Below, piece after piece: positions 47,580 to 54,387 of a DNA stretch of 64,000 bases. Source of the DNA: Shinella zoogloeoides. GTDB lineage: Bacteria; Pseudomonadota; Alphaproteobacteria; Rhizobiales; Rhizobiaceae. The first letter of the stretch is position 1, and each line of letters starts with the position of its first letter. Made by a program: the position numbers and the translations under genes. Below the pieces are notes generated by a model, which had not been told where the DNA came from, did not search any database, and was given only the letters and a program-made list of their open reading frames with translations. The stretch lies in contig NZ_QNUJ01000004.1 in the NCBI RefSeq assembly GCF_003574625.1, positions 62,001 to 126,000 of the forward strand, given 5' to 3'.

Positions 47580-47858
47580 GGGATTGGAGAAGGTGAAGGC
47601 TTCTGTTGCCAGGTGCCTTCGGACCCCGCCTGCCGGTGCGACCCGTCAGGACTTTGAGTGAAGTGTCACACCGCCATTAGGCAGCGAGACGAGCTTCCGC
47701 ATAGTTGTCGTTTGCAACTACAAGTTTAGCCCGATAACGGTGGTACAATGCCGAGCAAAAAGTCGATCTTTACGCCCTTGTCGATCCTATTTCGCCCCCA
47801 TCAAAAGCCGGTCCGTCAAGGTCGACCGGTTTTTGGTGGAGGCGCCGGGTACCGAACC
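47580..47858 (-). ncRNA. ssrA: Native ssrA (permuted tmRNA), downstream half cut off by the island: 3' acceptor end, intervening segment and coding RNA
   Basis: Read on the minus strand: T-loop and T-stem remainder (complement of 47845-47856), acceptor strand CGCCTCC (47844-47838), ACCA (47837-47834), an intervening hairpin (47833-47800), then the coding RNA starting GGGGGCG (47799-47793). The 7-bp acceptor stem has the G3-U pair that identifies alanyl-tRNA. The tag ORF at 47715-47677 encodes ANDNYAEARLAA and ends TAA. The terminal hairpin is GAAGGC (47620-47615) / GCCTTC (47600-47595) and is intact. The promoter and the 5' part of the acceptor RNA are missing here; they lie 6.3 kb away at 54156-54227. 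Any expression would need read-through from the island copy upstream. Confidence 0.85.
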
Positions 47859-47944
47859 TTATAAAGACAACTTCGGAGTTAGCCGACGTAAGTTTCTAAT
47901 TAAATCAGAGGCTTATGTGGTTTCGTCGTGGGCTAACTGGCGAG

Positions 47945-48270
47945 TGGGAGGAAGTGGAGGTTTCTGTTGCCAGGTACCTCCGAACCCCGCCTAAGAGTGC
48001 GACCCCTTAGGACTTGATTTGAAGTGTCACACTGCGATTAAGCAGCGAGACGAGCTTCCGCATAGTTGTCGTTTGCAACTACTATTTTGACCCGATAACG
48101 GTGGTATCATGCCGAGCACAGCTTTTGTCTTTCAATGCCAGTCGATCCCATTTCGCCCCCATCAACAGCCGCCGTACCCGGCGGTTCTTGGTGGAGGCGG
48201 CGGCTTCGAAGCCGCGTCCTGTACATCTATTGCACAAAAGGTTTAGCACCATAGCCTCCTTGCGGGGGCA
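47945..48270 (-). ncRNA. ssrA: Island-borne complete permuted two-piece tmRNA
   Basis: Minus-strand order: acceptor RNA from about 48270 (GCCCCCGCAAGGAGGC hairpin), T-arm GCGGC-TTCGAA-GCCGC (48214-48199), acceptor strand CGCCTCC (48198-48192), ACCA (48191-48188), intervening hairpin (48187-48161), coding RNA starting GGGGGCG (48160-48154). The acceptor stem has the G3-U pair. ACAAAAG in the coding piece pairs with CTTTTGT in the acceptor piece (P2-like). The tag at 48076-48038 is ANDNYAEARLAA then TAA. The last hairpin is GGAGGT (47981-47976) / ACCTCC (47961-47956). It differs widely from the native copy outside functional elements, so it is not a recent tandem duplicate. It has its own promoter. 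Confidence 0.88.
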
Positions 48271-48276
48271 TTTGTG

Positions 48277-48304
48277 AGATAGTGCATTCGTCCGCCGATT
48301 TCAA
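48277..48304 (-). promoter_or_regulatory. Promoter of the island-borne ssrA
   Basis: On the minus strand, TTGAAA (48304-48299), 16 nt, then CTATCT (48282-48277). This fits the rhizobial housekeeping promoter (TTGA.. and CTATAT). Transcription would start near 48270, at the first acceptor hairpin. The -35 box lies in the loop of an inverted repeat CCGCCGAT/ATCGGCGG (48292-48318) that may end the preceding gene. Confidence 0.6.
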
Positions 48305-48308
48305 TGGG

Positions 48309-48848
48309 CTATCGGCGGTGAAGGTGTACAACTGACACACCCGCAGCCTCCTTGAGTTCTCGCACCATGCGAAGGGCCTGGAGGCGTTCCAAATGCCATT
48401 CATGGGTGCGGGTGAGCACGCGATTGAGATAGTCGCGCAGTTCGTCCCGTTCCTTCTTCAGTCGCTCGTACCGGGCCTGAAGCTGGACGAACGCCTTGGT
48501 AGGAGACTTTCCTATCTCGACGTCCGGAAGATCAGCAAGTTGCTCGCGCAGAGTTCGATTCACGCGGGCAAGGAAGTCTACCACATCGCGTTTCGTTGTT
48601 TCCTTGTGCTTGGGACCATTGAGGAAGTTCCACCCTAGTCCGCATAGGACCATGAAGTCTCCCTGTTCAAGCTGCACTTTGTCGTCGCGCGTTAACCTGT
48701 CCCAGAGTACTCCGCTCTGAAGCTCTTTCTCGACGAGGGTCATGCCAGACTGGATCTTCCGGAGCGCGTCTTCCGTCCGAGAGCAAGCCGCACCCTTGAG
48801 GCCATCCAAGACCTTTCTCTTGTTGGAGGTGGACTTCTTCGATGTCAT
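48309..48848 (-). CDS. Island hypothetical protein with C-terminal coiled coil (paralog of 48892-49224)
   Basis: 179 aa, no family recognised. The basic Ser/Lys N-terminus (MTSKKSTSNKRK) is followed by a central block ELQSGVLWDRLTRDDKVQL, DFMVLCGLGWNFLNGPKHK and ETTKRDVVDFLARVN, and a C-terminal coiled coil (LQARYERLKKERDELRDYLN). The central block is repeated almost unchanged in the neighbouring gene upstream. No membrane segment or signal peptide. It is transcribed toward the island ssrA and ends in an inverted repeat. The cysteine and Trp pattern does not point to a known enzyme. Confidence 0.65.
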   Translation of the reverse strand: MTSKKSTSNKRKVLDGLKGAACSRTEDALRKIQSGMTLVEKELQSGVLWDRLTRDDKVQLEQGDFMVLCGLGWNFLNGPKHKETTKRDVVDFLARVNRTLREQLADLPDVEIGKSPTKAFVQLQARYERLKKERDELRDYLNRVLTRTHEWHLERLQALRMVRELKEAAGVSVVHLHRR

Positions 48849-48891
48849 CGGGTTCTCTCCAGCGCTGGAACAGTGTCAAAATCATTCGAAA

Positions 48892-49224
48892 TCAGCCCTC
48901 CAGTCTGGCCACGCGGCTGACTGGGCGGTCAGCAAGTTGCTCGCGCAGCCTCTGATTCACGCCAGCGAGGAAGTCGATGACATGGCGTTTCGTGGTTTCC
49001 TTTTGTTTCGGACCGTTGAGGAAATTCCAGCTTAGTCCGCACAGGACCATGAAGTCCTGTTGCTGAAGTTCGACTTTATCGTCGCGCACCAGCCGGTGCC
49101 AAAGAACTCCACTCTGAAGCTCTTCCTCGACCAGGGCCATACAAGCCTGGATCTTCTGGAGCGCCTCTTCCGTCCGCCAGTGAGGTGCATCCCTGAGACC
49201 ATCCAAGGCCCCTTGTTGTGTCAC
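48892..49224 (-). CDS. Island hypothetical protein, shortened paralog of 48309-48848
   Basis: 110 aa from a GTG at 49224. It shares ELQSGVLWHRLVRDDKVEL, DFMVLCGLSWNFLNGPKQK and ETTKRHVIDFLAGVN with the next gene, but the C-terminal coiled coil is gone and the frame ends at VSRVARLEG. The start has only a weak, distant Shine-Dalgarno. It is 43 bp upstream of its paralog in the same direction. This is a tandem duplication followed by truncation; it may be a pseudogene. Confidence 0.5.
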   Translation of the reverse strand: MTQQGALDGLRDAPHWRTEEALQKIQACMALVEEELQSGVLWHRLVRDDKVELQQQDFMVLCGLSWNFLNGPKQKETTKRHVIDFLAGVNQRLREQLADRPVSRVARLEG

Positions 49225-49255
49225 CGAATCCCAAGCGTTCGCCCTTCATCGATGC

Positions 49256-49759
49256 CTAAGGTCGTGAAGACTTGAAATGATCGAACGTAGTTTCGAACCT
49301 ACTGACGAGCCGTGCCTCGCGTCTCGTATTCAGGGGTGTAAGGCCTAGCTCATTGTTCTTCCGATGCGCGGCAAACAGGGTCTTAACACTTGAGGACTCC
49401 GCAGTTCCGACGAAGTAGCGGTCGCCCTTGTAGACATCGTTCAGCAGTCCAAGAAACGAGCGTCCCAAGCCGATCCCGATCCCGGAATTCAGGTAGTATT
49501 TGCACTCGGCGGCGAGGACAAGCTTGCTACTCCGGGGTTCGACGTTGGAAGCGCGGCAGATGTCGGCCTCGCTTTTGTAGAGCACGGCAACATCGCATTC
49601 GTGCGCGATATGGGAGCGAGGGTTTCGAACCGATGCGGCCCCATAAAGTCACGACATCCAGGGCGAGCCTTGTTTCTTAGTAAGATCCTCGAAACACGCG
49701 GTGATGTTCATGCGGGATCGATAAGCAACGACGACATCGTTTTCATAGAAGTTAGCCCT
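49256..49759 (-). pseudogene. Frameshifted PD-(D/E)XK-type nuclease remnant
   Basis: Three reading frames must be joined on the minus strand. The first segment runs from about 49753 (NFYENDVVVAYRSRM...ACFEDLTKK), then LALDVVT in a second frame, then from about 49650 LYGAASVRNPRSHIAHECDVAVL in a third frame, which continues to the stop at 49256. The last frame holds ECDVAVL, then LVLAAECKYYLNSGIGIGLG, the spaced Asp...Glu-x-Lys of restriction-like nucleases, and RSFLGLLNDVYKGDRYFVGT. Two frameshifts, with a TGA and a TAA in the wrong frames, show it is dead unless sequencing errors are involved. The 109-codon open frame from 49585 is only its tail. Confidence 0.6.
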
Positions 49760-49975
49760 TTAAGATTGTAATTTACTGCGTGGAGAGGTTGGGTAAGGTA
49801 GTGGAATCGTGCTGAGAAATGCTGGAAGCGTGCGAAGCGCAATGGCTTCGGGATGAAAGTCGTTCAACGGAGCCTGATAAGCGCATTCCCCATTGCTTGT
49901 CGGCTCCGCGCTCAAGGAACGTCGTTCTCTGGCATCCGCCGAGGGATCGGCTTACAACTATCCCGGGAGCATTCG
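49760..49975. other. Intergenic stretch without recognisable feature
   Basis: The plus-strand frame leading into the HNH gene is open from 49853, but its first 41 codons (MKVVQRSLISAF...) do not look protein-like and lack a Shine-Dalgarno. Nothing else is supported here. The base composition is more A/T-rich than the chromosome. Confidence 0.4.
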
Positions 49976-51106
49976 TTGAGACTACCCGACAAAGAACCTG
50001 TCCACGGAAAACTGCTTGGAGAGGCGCTCGATCGGACGACCGCCACCTACAAAATCACCCTGATGAAGACGATCATTGCACATGTCCGCGGCGGTGGTGG
50101 GGCGTTTCTTTCCTTCGGATCCATACTCCGCGGCATGATTGAAACCATCTGGGTCCCAGTCGCCCGGTTCCGCCTGACGCTCGGCCATGCCGATCAACTC
50201 GCGGGGTTTCTGGATTCGGTTCCCGAAGACATCCGCCTCTACGGCACCTTCCAGACCGCGCTCTCGCATCTCGACATGGGCCGGGCGGCTCATGAGACCA
50301 TCCTCCGCTATCCGCTGGCGGTCTTTCTCACGCCGTGGTTCAAAGCAGCGAGCGTGCAGCACAAGAGGAGCATCAGGCCTGGCAGGGATGCGATCCGCGC
50401 AGCCGATGCCGGGATCTACCTCCCGTACGACATCGAGGCCGACGGACTGAGACTGGATTCTGCCTTCATAGACTATGTTGCCGGGAACATGGCACTGCTC
50501 GAGGGCTGGACTGACATGTGTCTCGTAGACTATCTGCAGCGGCGAAATCCGAACGTTCCTGCCATACCGATGAAACTGCGCGATCTGGATCGGCCGGGCC
50601 TCGCAATCCAGCGCCGCTTCTGGAAGCAGGCGATGCAGAATGTGCCGCGCGCGTGCTTTTACACTGGGCGGCCGCTCGATCCGGAGAACTTCCATCTCGA
50701 CCACTTCGTTCCCCGGCGGTTCGTCGCTCATGATCGCATATGGAACCTTGTCCCGTCGCTTCCGGAAATCAACCTCAGCAAGGGTGTGGGCGTGCCGGAT
50801 GCGAACCTGATCCCGGCCATGGCGCGGCTGCATTTTGACGCCATCGGAGCCATCCGGCAGCACTCCCCGCAGAAATGGGCGCGCGACCTGCGCGAGGAGT
50901 ATCTCGATGATCTAGGGGTATCGCCGGAGGCGTTGGCGGACAACGCCAGCTTCGCGGCGGCCATGTCGGACACCCTGCAGCCACTGCTCAATCTTGCGCG
51001 CAAGCGCTTCCCTGACTGGCGGGGGCATCCCAACCTGCCACACGCGGTGGCCTCCCGGCGACATCCACGGCGAGTTCCTCTACTGCAGGGAATACTTCAG
51101 GGATGA
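49976..51106 (+). CDS. HNH endonuclease domain protein
   Basis: About 376 aa. The start is taken as TTG 49976 (MRLPDKEPVHGKLL) with GGGAG about 7 nt upstream. The N-terminal region (ALDRTTATYKITLMKTIIAHV) and FRLTLGHADQL resemble a recurrent uncharacterised N-domain of HNH proteins as I recall. The nuclease core is ACFYTGRPLDPENFHLDHFVPRRF, then WNLVPSLPEINLSKG: the Asp-His pair of LDHF and a distal Asn are the H-N-H positions. The zinc-type second Cys pair is missing, so this is a metal-free HNH variant. The last about 20 residues (RRHPRRVPLLQ) look like random sequence read past a deletion joint into the next gene fragment. Confidence 0.68.
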   Translation: MRLPDKEPVHGKLLGEALDRTTATYKITLMKTIIAHVRGGGGAFLSFGSILRGMIETIWVPVARFRLTLGHADQLAGFLDSVPEDIRLYGTFQTALSHLDMGRAAHETILRYPLAVFLTPWFKAASVQHKRSIRPGRDAIRAADAGIYLPYDIEADGLRLDSAFIDYVAGNMALLEGWTDMCLVDYLQRRNPNVPAIPMKLRDLDRPGLAIQRRFWKQAMQNVPRACFYTGRPLDPENFHLDHFVPRRFVAHDRIWNLVPSLPEINLSKGVGVPDANLIPAMARLHFDAIGAIRQHSPQKWARDLREEYLDDLGVSPEALADNASFAAAMSDTLQPLLNLARKRFPDWRGHPNLPHAVASRRHPRRVPLLQGILQG

Positions 51107-51107
51107 C

Positions 51108-52148
51108 ATGAACTGGCGGGATCGGCTGGCCGACGCACTGGAGCGGACCGATCATCGGCGCATCCGTCTCGCGACGATCCTCGCCGCAGTGTCCGGCTGC
51201 GATCTGAAGACGATCATCGAGAAGGTCTCGGCAGATGCCGTCCTTGCCCAGATCGACGGTCTCGAGGAGGAGTTCGGCCTGCAGGCGGTTGGCATGGCCG
51301 CGGCGCTCGCCGAACGCGGGCTGCTGCCGCTCTACGGCATGCCAACGCGGTCGCGAAATCTCTACGTCGAGCTGAAGAAGGCGAACGGGAAGGGAAACTT
51401 CGAGGCCGAGTGGGACACCATCGACCGCGACCAGGACATGGCGATCTTCGACTTCGCGCCGGGAAGCGTTCGAACGCGGGAAAAGCTGCGCCACCGCTGC
51501 ATCGGCTTCACTGGCGTTCTGCTCGATCCTGACCAGCACGCAACGAACTTCGACGGCCCCGTGGATCCCATCTCCGAATGGAGGAAGGACGACTTCCACC
51601 TCCGCTTCTGCGGCCAGTGCGGCGCGTGGAGCAGGGGCACCGAACATACCGTCGCCTGCCATGCCTGCGACGCACCCCTGGCCGATGCCGGGATCCGGTG
51701 CATCACTCCTGCAGGCTACCGTACGGAACTCATCCCCACGGACGAGAGCCTTGCCTCCAAGGTCGGCCAGCGCATGACGCTTGCGAGCCTCGGCAAGCCG
51801 GACGAACAGAAGACCGACGCAAATCTCAGCGTCAATTTCGCGGAGCAGTCGGAGATCTTCCTCGTCAATCCCGGCTTCAGGGATGAAACGGACTTCACGG
51901 GCTTCGAGGTGCAGGAGGTGGTCGACAACAACGCCCAGCGCATCTGGTGGTGGGTGGACAAGCCGCTTCTGAGGCTTTCGGGACCCTGGCCGGTTCGAAG
52001 CCAACCTTTGACAGCGCTTCCCCAAGCGTTTCTTTGTCGCCCGTCCGTTCTTCATGCGACCCAAGGTCGTCGGCTTTGGTCGTCTCGTTCTTACCACCGT
52101 GCGGCATCCCAGACTCCATTTCGCCATCCCGTGGACGATCCTGTTTAG
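51108..52148 (+). pseudogene. Internal fragment of a large DUF1998-like helicase-associated protein
   Basis: The frame is open from 50994; the recognisable part runs from about 51055 (GDIHGEFLYCREYF) to about 51965. It contains GLLPLYGMPTRSRNLYVEL, DRDQDMAIFDFAPGSVRTREK and a four-Cys zinc pattern (FCGQCGAWSR, ACHACDAP), which I associate with the C-terminal DUF1998/MZB part of DrmB- or Dpd-type helicases in defence loci. Both ends are artificial: upstream it joins the HNH gene, and after KPLLRLSGPWP it reads antisense into an unrelated gene start. It lacks any helicase core, so it is treated as a remnant. Family assignment is tentative. Confidence 0.5.
51966..52119 (-). pseudogene. Truncated 5' end of a lost gene
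   Basis: From an ATG at 52119 (minus strand) the frame reads MESGMPHGGKNETTKADDLG, then KETLGEALSKVGFEPARVPK, a plausible N-terminus of a soluble protein. After about 50 codons it runs into the antisense of the helicase fragment. It lies just downstream of the AAA gene in the same direction, so it may once have been the next gene of that operon. Evidence is limited to the look of the peptide and the composition break. Confidence 0.3.
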
Positions 52149-52236
52149 GTCGCCCGCCAGGGGCGTGAGCTGCAATGAGAGATGCCTGCATGCGAAGTGG
52201 CCGAGCGACTTGGGGTGGACATCATCGCATGCGGCC

Positions 52237-53463
52237 TTATTGTCGTCGCCTTGCACGTTCACGCGCCTCCCGCAATACTTCGACGAGACGCTCCAGCTTC
52301 CGGATCGAACCACCCGTCCAAAAGCTCGCCAAGGCGTCCAACTCGAATCCTTCAAGCGGAGTTGCCCAGCGCGGATCATGACCCGTCTCGATGTACAGCC
52401 GCTGCAGGATTCGCGTGGCGAACAGCGGCAACTGGTCGGCTCCCGGATTGGGAAAAGGCAGGATTCGGCACCTGTCCCGCAAAGCCGCCGGGACCGGCTC
52501 CAGTGAGTTCGCCGTCATCAGCCATGATACGCGCGACAGATCGCAGTGGGCCTCAAGGTAGGGATCATGCCAGCGTCTCGATGTCTCGGGTTCGAAAAGT
52601 CCGATCAACACGTCGTGCACGTTGCCATTGTTGCGGCCGGCACCGATCTTCTCGATCTCGTCGAGAATGACAACTGGCCCGGCGCATTCGTGTTCACGCA
52701 CGGCCATGACCGGAAGGCTAGGTTCGCCCGACGACCATCTCCGGGCGGTTCCGCCGATGGCGCTATCGCTCAAGCCTCCACACGAGATGAGCTCACAGGG
52801 CGCCCTGAGTTCCTCCGTCAATCGCCTGGCGAACCGCGTCTTGCCACTTCCGGGTGCTCCGAGCAGGACGGTCGGCTTCAGGTGAACATTTGGCCGACCG
52901 ACAAGGCCCTCGAGCACGTTGTCAACAACCGCCACCGCATAGGGAAATTCCGCGATCAGTTGCGCTCGAACTGTGGTTAGGTCGGGCATGCCGGGCAGCG
53001 GCAACGGACGCAGTTTGAACTTCGCGAATTCCTTCTCCACTCGCTTCCCATCGGCTGTCGTGTCGTTGCCGATGCCGCTGATAACGACGACTCCGTCGGT
53101 CGGTCGCGTTTCGAGTTCTGATGGTTCCTTTTTTTCCCAGGTTGCTTCTGCAAGGCCAGCAGATGATGAATCCTTGGGTTCTGGCTCGGCAGCCAGGCGG
53201 TACCAACGGTTGATCGTACGCGCGATGCCAACCTCCGTGTCCATGTACATGAGCTGACTGGTCATGATTTCACGACTGTCTCCCAGAGATGGATGTCCAA
53301 AGACGTATCCTGAGAGGCAGGCCGTCCTGCGTGAATACATCTGGTGTGCTTCGAGGATGGGAGCGGTGTGGAGTGACAGTATGTGGGTGATTCCAGCCTC
53401 AACCGAGCGCAAATCGGCGGACAGTCTCTGTGCATCTTCTGCGCTCAAATAGGCGAACTTCAT
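52237..53463 (-). CDS. AAA family ATPase (Lon-like ATPase domain), island-encoded
   Basis: 408 aa. The N-terminal third (residues about 1-150) has no family I recognise. The ATPase module follows: VLLGAPGSGKTRFARRL (Walker A), VVILDEIEKIGAG (Walker B), SWLMTANSLEPVPAALRDRCRIL (sensor 1 and arginine-finger region), resembling the Lon/ClpX-type AAA+ core. No protease domain or Lon Ser/Lys dyad is present. The ATG at 53463 has GGAGAGG about 9 nt upstream. It is divergent from the XRE gene across a triple operator. A defence or stress-sensing role is possible but not shown. Confidence 0.75.
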   Translation of the reverse strand: MKFAYLSAEDAQRLSADLRSVEAGITHILSLHTAPILEAHQMYSRRTACLSGYVFGHPSLGDSREIMTSQLMYMDTEVGIARTINRWYRLAAEPEPKDSSSAGLAEATWEKKEPSELETRPTDGVVVISGIGNDTTADGKRVEKEFAKFKLRPLPLPGMPDLTTVRAQLIAEFPYAVAVVDNVLEGLVGRPNVHLKPTVLLGAPGSGKTRFARRLTEELRAPCELISCGGLSDSAIGGTARRWSSGEPSLPVMAVREHECAGPVVILDEIEKIGAGRNNGNVHDVLIGLFEPETSRRWHDPYLEAHCDLSRVSWLMTANSLEPVPAALRDRCRILPFPNPGADQLPLFATRILQRLYIETGHDPRWATPLEGFELDALASFWTGGSIRKLERLVEVLREARERARRRQ

Positions 53464-53513
53464 GGGATTGCCCTCTCCTGTTGATTCGCTGCTTTCAAGA
53501 ACCACGAAATATT

Positions 53514-53570
53514 AGCGATTATGTCGCTTTAATTAGCGAATCTATCGCTACTTTTCGCGAGTCTTTCGCT
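53514..53570. promoter_or_regulatory. Three 15-bp operators AGCGA-N5-TCGCT spaced exactly 21 bp
   Basis: AGCGATTATGTCGCT (53514-53528), AGCGAATCTATCGCT (53535-53549) and CGCGAGTCTTTCGCT (53556-53570). The start-to-start distance is 21 bp each time, two helix turns, so all sites face the same side. They fill the space between the AAA gene (start 53463) and the XRE gene (start 53621). They are the natural binding sites for the XRE protein as a divergent auto-repressor (inference). Confidence 0.7.
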
Positions 53571-53620
53571 ATTGTCAACATTTGTTTGCGAACCGGGGCT
53601 TTTGATGACACCAAGGCGGC

Positions 53621-53881
53621 ATGAGGCCGCCATCACGAATGCTTGCTGTCGCTCGACTTGTCCTTGGTCAAACTCAGGCCGAGGTGGCGGAGGATTCCGG
53701 CATCAGTCCACGCACGATCTACATGATCGAGAAGGGAGCAGCCGGGATCGCAAGCGTTGAAAAACTGGTCCGCCACTACGGCAAGCGCGGCGTGATCTTT
53801 CTCGCGCCTAGTGGGGCGGAAGGCTGGGGTATCCGCGCCAGCTTTGTAGCCGGATGTTATGATGATGAACGGCCAGAGTGA
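53621..53881 (+). CDS. XRE-family helix-turn-helix regulator, island-encoded
   Basis: 86-aa protein with one Cro/cI-type HTH (LVLGQTQAEVAEDSGISPRTIYMIEKG, residues about 13-39), then VEKLVRHYGKRGVIFLAP and a short acidic tail. The ATG at 53621 is preceded by AAGGCGG; an ATG at 53605 is possible in another frame only. The HTH at the N-terminus and the triple palindrome upstream make it the probable repressor of both itself and the AAA gene. Confidence 0.8.
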   Translation: MRPPSRMLAVARLVLGQTQAEVAEDSGISPRTIYMIEKGAAGIASVEKLVRHYGKRGVIFLAPSGAEGWGIRASFVAGCYDDERPE

Positions 53882-54056
53882 TCGACTGCCAGTGTTGCTG
53901 AGGTCGGGCGCTCAAAGCCCCTTCCTTCGGTCGGGGTCCAAGTCGGCTTCGCCGCAAATGACGGCCTACCGGCCGGCTTCTTAAGTTCTTTTTGACGACA
54001 AGACCTCGTCCGCTGCGAAGTTGGGCTCCGCTCCTCGGCCTTGTCTTCTAAGCGGA
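53882..54056. other. Island right-end non-coding stretch
   Basis: No gene is supported between the XRE stop and the ssrA fragment. The stretch has short GC-rich inverted repeats (for example CCCC...GGGG near 53916-53937). An integrase would be expected here in an intact element, but no recombinase motif is readable in any frame. Confidence 0.4.
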
Positions 54057-54096
54057 ATGCGTGCTGTTCGATCGCCTAGGGGCGATCGGCACGCAT
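54057..54096. repeat. Long interrupted hairpin at the right end of the island
   Basis: ATGCGTGC-TGTT-CGATCGCC (54057-54076), TAGG, GGCGATCG-GCACGCAT (54081-54096): 16 paired bases with one 4-nt bulge. It lies about 60 bp from the right junction. It could be a terminator or a recombinase/arm site; there is no T-run to prefer the first. Confidence 0.45.
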
Positions 54097-54155
54097 GCTT
54101 CATTCTAAGGGAGAGTTGGCTGGTCGACTAACTGGCGCGGGTTGTCTGTATAACG

Positions 54156-54216
54156 CCCCCGGGTCCAATGGGTTTATTACACCGCCCGTTTATTGCCATA
54201 GCTGCCGAAGCAGCAC
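54156..54216 (-). pseudogene. ssrA: Detached 5' part of the native ssrA acceptor RNA
   Basis: Minus strand: a GCTGC-TTCG-GCAGC hairpin (54214-54201), then CTATGGCAATAAAC...GTGTAATAAACCCATTGG, ending in CCGGG (54162-54158), the 5' strand of the T-stem. It aligns with the acceptor of the island copy (both have GCTATGG, AAAC, GTG.AATA). It pairs with the separated coding RNA at 47580-47799: CCC-A-TTG here with CAAGGG there, and GGCAA-T-AAA with TTTTTGCT. These pairings show it is the missing piece of that gene. Beyond 54157 the sequence is island. Confidence 0.75.
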
Positions 54217-54221
54217 TTCAC

Positions 54222-54227
54222 ATATAG
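54222..54227 (-). promoter_or_regulatory. -10 box of the native ssrA promoter
   Basis: A perfect CTATAT on the minus strand (complement of 54222-54227) lies 8 nt before the first acceptor hairpin, the right distance for a start near 54215. The -35 region is poor (CTTTTC at about 17 nt). It should still produce a short RNA running into the island. Confidence 0.5.
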
Positions 54228-54387
54228 GCATTCCGGGCGCGCAAGAAAAGGGCTTTGTGACAGAGATTTTGCCCCGCGGCCGGGCAGGCGTTCATTAGCG
54301 CTTGACTTGCCGCCATGCGTTGAAAAACATGGGCATGCGGCGGGACCCCCATGACGGCGGCAGCCGAACGACCGTAGAGGAGACACC

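Follow-up and report, generated by a model that had tools for sequence, protein, structure and literature searches.

The right operator of phage lambda comprises three sites for CI and Cro, and the locus described here, from Shinella zoogloeoides, shares with that type of operator a Cro/CI-type HTH regulator, a divergent gene arrangement, a promoter with three palindromes in tandem and a phasing that permits cooperation. It differs from lambda in its 15-bp sites lying exactly 21 bp apart, in its regulator, which is a single 86-aa protein, and in its target, a DUF6634/AAA operon rather than phage lysis–lysogeny genes; by analogy, the operator would belong to a familiar, lambda-like type. Type II toxin–antitoxin systems with autoregulated HTH antitoxins offer a second comparison, a small HTH regulator and a palindromic operator at its own locus being common to both; unlike those antitoxins, however, the XRE regulator of this locus is divergent, not co-transcribed, and its partner genes are ATPase/protease-like. 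The initial annotation of this DNA had drawn the toxin–antitoxin comparison, but the antitoxin model couple_hipB/Y4mF (TIGR03070) scored 25.5, below its cut-off of 71.65, and membership of this class was rejected.

IetAS defence systems pair an AAA ATPase with a subtilisin-like protease. AAA ATPase genes also occur near a protease gene in relatives of the unit studied here, whereas the IetA matches were weak both for the AAA protein of the window (the whole 64,000-nucleotide stretch of DNA analysed), where the match (5.5e-6) spanned 80 residues only and IetAS membership was rejected, and for intact relatives (5.2e-8 and 4.1e-6). In addition, the protease of the relatives is of the M41 type, no M41 remnant was matched in the window island up to E 5, and no subtilisin-like protease was found among eight window proteins scanned with Pfam. 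In the portions of the literature reached by searches on operator geometry, IetAS, tmRNA islands and Druantia regulators, no description of an XRE–DUF6634–AAA unit was found, and the name DUF6634 did not appear in a text search whose coverage leaves most subscription journals outside.

The operator array and its regulator

The array lies between the divergent XRE gene (+) and the AAA ORF (-), its sites following one another at 21 + 21 bp (Table 1). The initial annotation had reported three copies of AGCGA-N5-TCGCT, 21 bp apart; positions and spacing held, but the third copy is not exact, and its deviating C is found identically in the alignment of four related loci (L035, L036, L048, and L130). 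The single motif, with up to two mismatches, showed no enrichment in the window (70 observed vs 67.4 expected). The triple as a whole carries 1 mismatch of 30, whereas no triple with fewer than 8 arose in any of 60 dinucleotide shuffles of the window. Furthermore, in a motif-free test admitting any 5-N5-5 palindrome at any spacing from 16 to 30, the intergenic region scored 29 of 30, against a mean of 20.0 and a maximum of 22 in the shuffles (n = 300). The triple array is far beyond chance.

Table 1. Features of the locus; positions count from the first base of the window.
Feature	Position	Strand	Sequence	Evidence and remarks
6.3-kb island within tmRNA gene	47855..54150			Flanks abut in 6 of 7 same-genus genomes
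Complete replacement tmRNA on island	47953..48308	-		RF01849, 262 bits, whole model
Druantia DruE-like gene fragment	50994..52148	+		PADLOC DruE2, E 2.1e-69; profile positions 1315-1613 of 1928
AAA (Lon-like) part of fused gene, C-terminal ~314 codons + stop	52237..53181	-		Pfam AAA, 44.9 bits; matches C-terminal part of ~512-aa intact relatives
Fusion junction	53182..53193			~12 bases without a match on either side; DNA compared with that of L035 and L036
DUF6634 part of fused gene	53194..53463	-		Pfam PF20339, 31.7 bits (cut-off 27); 90 codons from conserved ATG
Operator site 1	53514..53528		AGCGATTATGTCGCT	Perfect 5-N5-5 palindrome, 0 mismatches; aligned in six loci
Operator site 2	53535..53549		AGCGAATCTATCGCT	Perfect AGCGA-N5-TCGCT, 0 mismatches
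Operator site 3	53556..53570		CGCGAGTCTTTCGCT	1 mismatch
TTGACA, candidate -35 box of DUF6634/AAA promoter	53573..53578	-		2 bp from site 3; common to six aligned loci
XRE (Cro/CI-type HTH_3) regulator, 86 aa	53621..53881	+		Pfam HTH_3 PF01381, 29.1 bits (cut-off 23); divergent from operon

In the DUF6634/AAA direction, the array would cover the remainder of the promoter beyond the TTGACA; neither a full sigma-70 consensus promoter nor an evident -10 box was found, and the promoter is therefore a putative one. As for the regulator, no second domain besides the HTH was recognised by Pfam. It is under purifying selection, with dN/dS values of 0.04–0.11 in 14 of the 15 pairs of the close group and no amino-acid change in the remaining pair, and the stretch SPRTIYMIEKG, which by its position we take to be the recognition helix, is nearly invariant in the alignment of that group. 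Matches to the XRE were obtained in 20 of 394 family genomes at E 1e-6, in none of the seven other same-genus genomes at the same threshold, in a single genome (the window's own) of 397 in an order-wide search at E 1e-8, and in no phage records, viral contigs or solved structures. The 86-aa protein is likely the binder of the array.

We consider it probable that the XRE regulator has the three palindromes as its operator, through which it would repress the operon on the DUF6634 side and autoregulate its own gene, with dimers able to cooperate and with the operon of the window collapsed to a fusion. XRE dimers would occupy three sites two helical turns apart on one DNA face, and the occupied sites would cover the promoter in the DUF6634 direction, from TTGACA downstream, about 50 bp upstream of the XRE start codon. 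This occupancy would repress the DUF6634 operon and, as its position suggests, the XRE gene as well, and the 21-bp phasing suggests that neighbouring dimers on the same face could cooperate. Alternatively, the palindromes might act in a transcript as RNA hairpins (attenuator or terminator) instead of as DNA operators, considering that each site can form a 5-bp stem (with one mismatch in site 3) and a 5-base loop and that site 1 was flagged as terminator-like on the minus strand; however, the stems are merely 5 bp long, the tail is a poor T run, and the regular 21-bp phasing, kept in six loci, is more in line with DNA binding, leaving hairpins very improbable.

Conservation of the array

Six loci carry an XRE of at least 83% identity, namely the window, Neorhizobium alkalisoli (L035), Ferirhizobium litorale (L036, the same as G100/L039), and the genomes G108 (L048), G178 (L130) and G283 (L040). 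In all six, the best motif-free triple had a spacing of 21 bp and an offset of 72–73, and exceeded all 60 shuffles of each locus. All three sites were kept in five of them, the middle site being decayed in G283. Across the five intact loci, invariant positions amounted to 26/30 in the half-sites, 3/15 in the N5 spacers, 6/12 between sites and 5/20 in the flank; when G283 was added, these became 19, 0, 6 and 2, respectively. The half-sites are conserved and the N5 spacers are drifting.

The initial annotation had proposed looking for the motif in other genomes, and the three-site pattern (up to two mismatches) was indeed detected in 17 of 394 family genomes, as opposed to 1 of 394 for the reversed control, and within 60 bp of an XRE match in five of the 17 genomes carrying it. 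A looser two-site pattern was rejected as a genome marker for being non-specific (328/394 family genomes at 1 mismatch), an abundance that we read as codon periodicity in coding DNA; since 21 is a multiple of 3 and the two-site pattern is near-ubiquitous, the three-site pattern alone is informative. This bears on whether the array is bound by another host regulator rather than by the local XRE. The genome holds five additional exact single sites elsewhere, vs two reversed-control matches, which would suit such a regulator, but the three-site pattern occurs only once in this genome and adjoins an XRE match in four other genomes, so that binding by the local XRE is preferred and a host regulator seems highly unlikely.

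Loci with distant XREs mostly had other upstream sequences, for example GGCGTC-N2/3-GACGCC, which together with further GACGCC copies was seen in L042, L043, L046, L049, L050, and L052. Among 20 loci with other XREs, a significant triple (above all 60 shuffles) was detected in five, with a spacing of 21 in L131 (G174), L134, L135, and L166 and of 22 in L044. The other 15 had no triple above the shuffles in the motif-free test, and the triple architecture is therefore not general; the exact arrangement appears to be mainly confined to the window-type XRE group. G174, one of the five genomes with the three-site pattern close to an XRE match, has its array next to an XRE of just 33% identity, adjoined by an IS21-like transposase ORF (our reading of the translation) and by no module gene. 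The correspondence between array sequence and XRE group is therefore imperfect, and G174 would count as weak, mixed evidence.

The fused gene and its island

The N-terminal third of the AAA protein had been described as unrecognised in the initial annotation; Pfam recognises it as DUF6634, and a novel domain was ruled out in favour of a DUF6634 joined by deletion or recombination. This part shares 96% and 94% identity with the stand-alone DUF6634 genes of N. alkalisoli and F. litorale, respectively, the former scoring 39.6 bits with PF20339. The AAA ORF is open from a GTG at 53505, and the relatives align from the ATG at 53463. The DUF6634 frame is intact to ...NRWYRL and is followed by unmatched bases and then by the AAA sequence from about codon 200, the DUF6634 stop, the spacer and the first ~200 AAA codons (~0.7 kb in total) being missing at the junction. 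At the protein level, residues 1–106 match a short upstream ORF of the relatives, and the remainder, beginning near residue 107, corresponds to the end of the ~512-aa AAA ORF, with the P-loop GAPGSGKT and VVILDEIE (Walker A + B) read intact in the translation. The window gene is an in-frame fusion of DUF6634 with the C-terminal 60% of the AAA protein.

No second DUF6634–AAA fusion was detected when 28 AAA loci were searched using the two profiles, and among the matches listed from 297 family genomes, the only one spanning both parts came from the window's own genome. The plasmid AAA protein H1 (L145), although covering 81% of the fused query, had no DUF6634 profile match and was rejected as a second fusion. 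The dS to L035/L036 rises at the junction from 0.10–0.22 for XRE and DUF6634 to 0.51–0.61 for AAA, and the two fused halves may therefore derive from different alleles. Membership of the Lon proteases was rejected for the window protein, which scored 77.5 bits against a cut-off of 608 and matched over the AAA region only. DUF6634 had two matches in viral contigs and none in phage records or solved structures. Predicted structures had a mean pLDDT of 42.9 for DUF6634 and 49.5 for the intact AAA protein, too poor for a fold search, and the lost N-terminal region of the AAA protein is predicted with modest confidence to be all-helical.

A 6.3-kb island holds the XRE–DUF6634/AAA unit at one of its ends. 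The sequences up to 47854 and from 54151 onwards are directly joined in six of seven same-genus genomes, and the seventh (G730) carries a different insert at the same point, its tmRNA being 94% identical to that of the island. The split tmRNA gene, with its replacement, occupies 47586-48308 and 54151-54270, and the replacement tmRNA is only ~80% identical to the native piece. The ends hold the split target and regenerated copy by which a tmRNA island is recognised. These two features are shared with tmRNA (ssrA) islands of the Islander kind (PMC4383910), whereas the window island is small and decayed, and no integrase was noticed among those of its ORFs that were scanned (a subset). An HNH-domain ORF (49853-51106) overlaps the DruE-like fragment, and together (49853-52148) they are a Druantia remnant; membership of Druantia, in the sense of a complete DruE with partners, was rejected, the DruE fragment alone being found among four window proteins scanned. 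A tandem duplicated stretch (48532-48813 and 48929-49210, 80% identical DNA) was also observed in the island, its ORFs having no Pfam family above the cut-off.

In this genome, all that is left of the operon is a single in-frame fusion within the decayed tmRNA island, and the switch therefore probably still works but would drive a chimeric, possibly non-functional product.

The unit in relatives and its possible role

Judging from gene order, the conserved unit in relatives is a divergent XRE, a separate DUF6634 gene and then a ~512-aa Lon-like AAA protein. Using profiles built partly from loci later scanned with them, a divergent XRE was found adjoining in 17 and DUF6634 present in 18 of 21 non-redundant AAA loci, which were taken from the best matches, several of them from one genome, after the duplicates (L036 = L039, L045 = L037) had been dropped; in seven more distant AAA loci, a divergent XRE was found in three and DUF6634 in one. 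The association of AAA homologs with such a partner, on which the initial annotation had staked its proposal, is thus borne out, but the AAA gene as the operator's target is not, as the operator heads a DUF6634-first operon and the AAA with a DUF6634 N-terminus is a local fusion. From the XRE side, a divergent DUF6634 was adjacent to 16 of 25 XRE matches, spanning 15 genera; eight had no DUF6634 within the 2–3 kb examined, and the ninth had one only further off.

FtsH-like ATPase, M41 peptidases and a calcineurin-type phosphoesterase lie near the unit in some loci, and the controlled operon in relatives would consist of DUF6634 and the Lon-like AAA protein, sometimes with the FtsH-like ATPase and the M41 peptidase. 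F. litorale and N. alkalisoli both carry XRE, DUF6634 and AAA, with no M41 match in the 12 kb and 11 kb read, respectively, and all three genes are also present on the predicted viral contig L166. On the Rhizobium plasmid L142, an XRE (61%) is divergent from a DUF6634 (44%); FtsH-like and M41 genes accompany the pair, and the 8 kb read gave no match to the Lon-like AAA. Further arrangements were observed in other loci, including tandem DUF6634 genes of different subtypes ahead of the AAA gene (L048 8862-9710 and L056 8774-9412), a DUF6634 followed directly, with no AAA between, by an ORF that by eye is calcineurin-type phosphoesterase-like (viral contig L165 4842-5968), and an additional, broken fragment from this AAA family ~7 kb from an intact copy in G289 (L038 1966-2278).

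Two of the close loci raise the question of which gene the array serves. In G178, the DUF6634 has a stop after codon 42 and the XRE and array are kept, so the array may be there for autoregulation only, or DUF6634 may have been broken recently; in G283, the DUF6634 is frameshifted and the XRE is kept. Moreover, the window, F. litorale and G178 carry the XRE and array in one and the same position next to the thyA region. The XRE might accordingly use the array mainly for autoregulation or for control of the island (e.g., excision or maintenance), with DUF6634/AAA incidental. Against this, the divergent XRE–DUF6634 pair recurs in as many as 15 genera and on the Rhizobium plasmid, the array adjoins the TTGACA on the DUF6634 side, and the scanned subset of window-island ORFs yielded no integrase, and we regard this alternative as unlikely compared with an operator that would control both the DUF6634-side operon and the XRE gene.

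The neighbouring genes bear on a role in defence. Flanks of related loci included HamA/HamB, DrmA and methyltransferases, each accounting for one to a few of the 142 ORFs, and mad3 in two ORFs; mad3 was also found in 3 of 63 control ORFs, as the only defence family among the control families listed. This comparison sets 142 flanking ORFs of 22 loci against 63 ORFs from 34/35 control loci of unequal locus length, with families counted from the first 25 of 56 and the first 25 of 34. Among the accessory genes, the L037 phosphoesterase hits the candidate model PDC-S10 (4.3e-15), and IetA is matched by the AAA domain of the L042 FtsH-like ATPase (5.9e-24). Given these defence-type neighbours, a defence role in relatives is possible, while a working defence module in the window's own genome is doubtful. 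More tentatively, the divergent XRE with DUF6634, the Lon-like AAA and, where present, the FtsH-like ATPase, M41 and sometimes the phosphoesterase might constitute an undescribed island-borne anti-phage or stress-proteolysis system of Rhizobiaceae, in which the operator would silence a costly protease machine until a signal releases the XRE.

The lesson drawn from this genome is a modest one, namely that the switch would have outlived its intact payload. For the family, DUF6634 gains a recurrent context, a putative divergent XRE switch together with ATPase/protease genes, on genome contigs of many genera, a plasmid and a predicted viral contig, and the operator would offer a means of releasing the operon from control in a relative where it is intact, and thereby of learning the operon's role.
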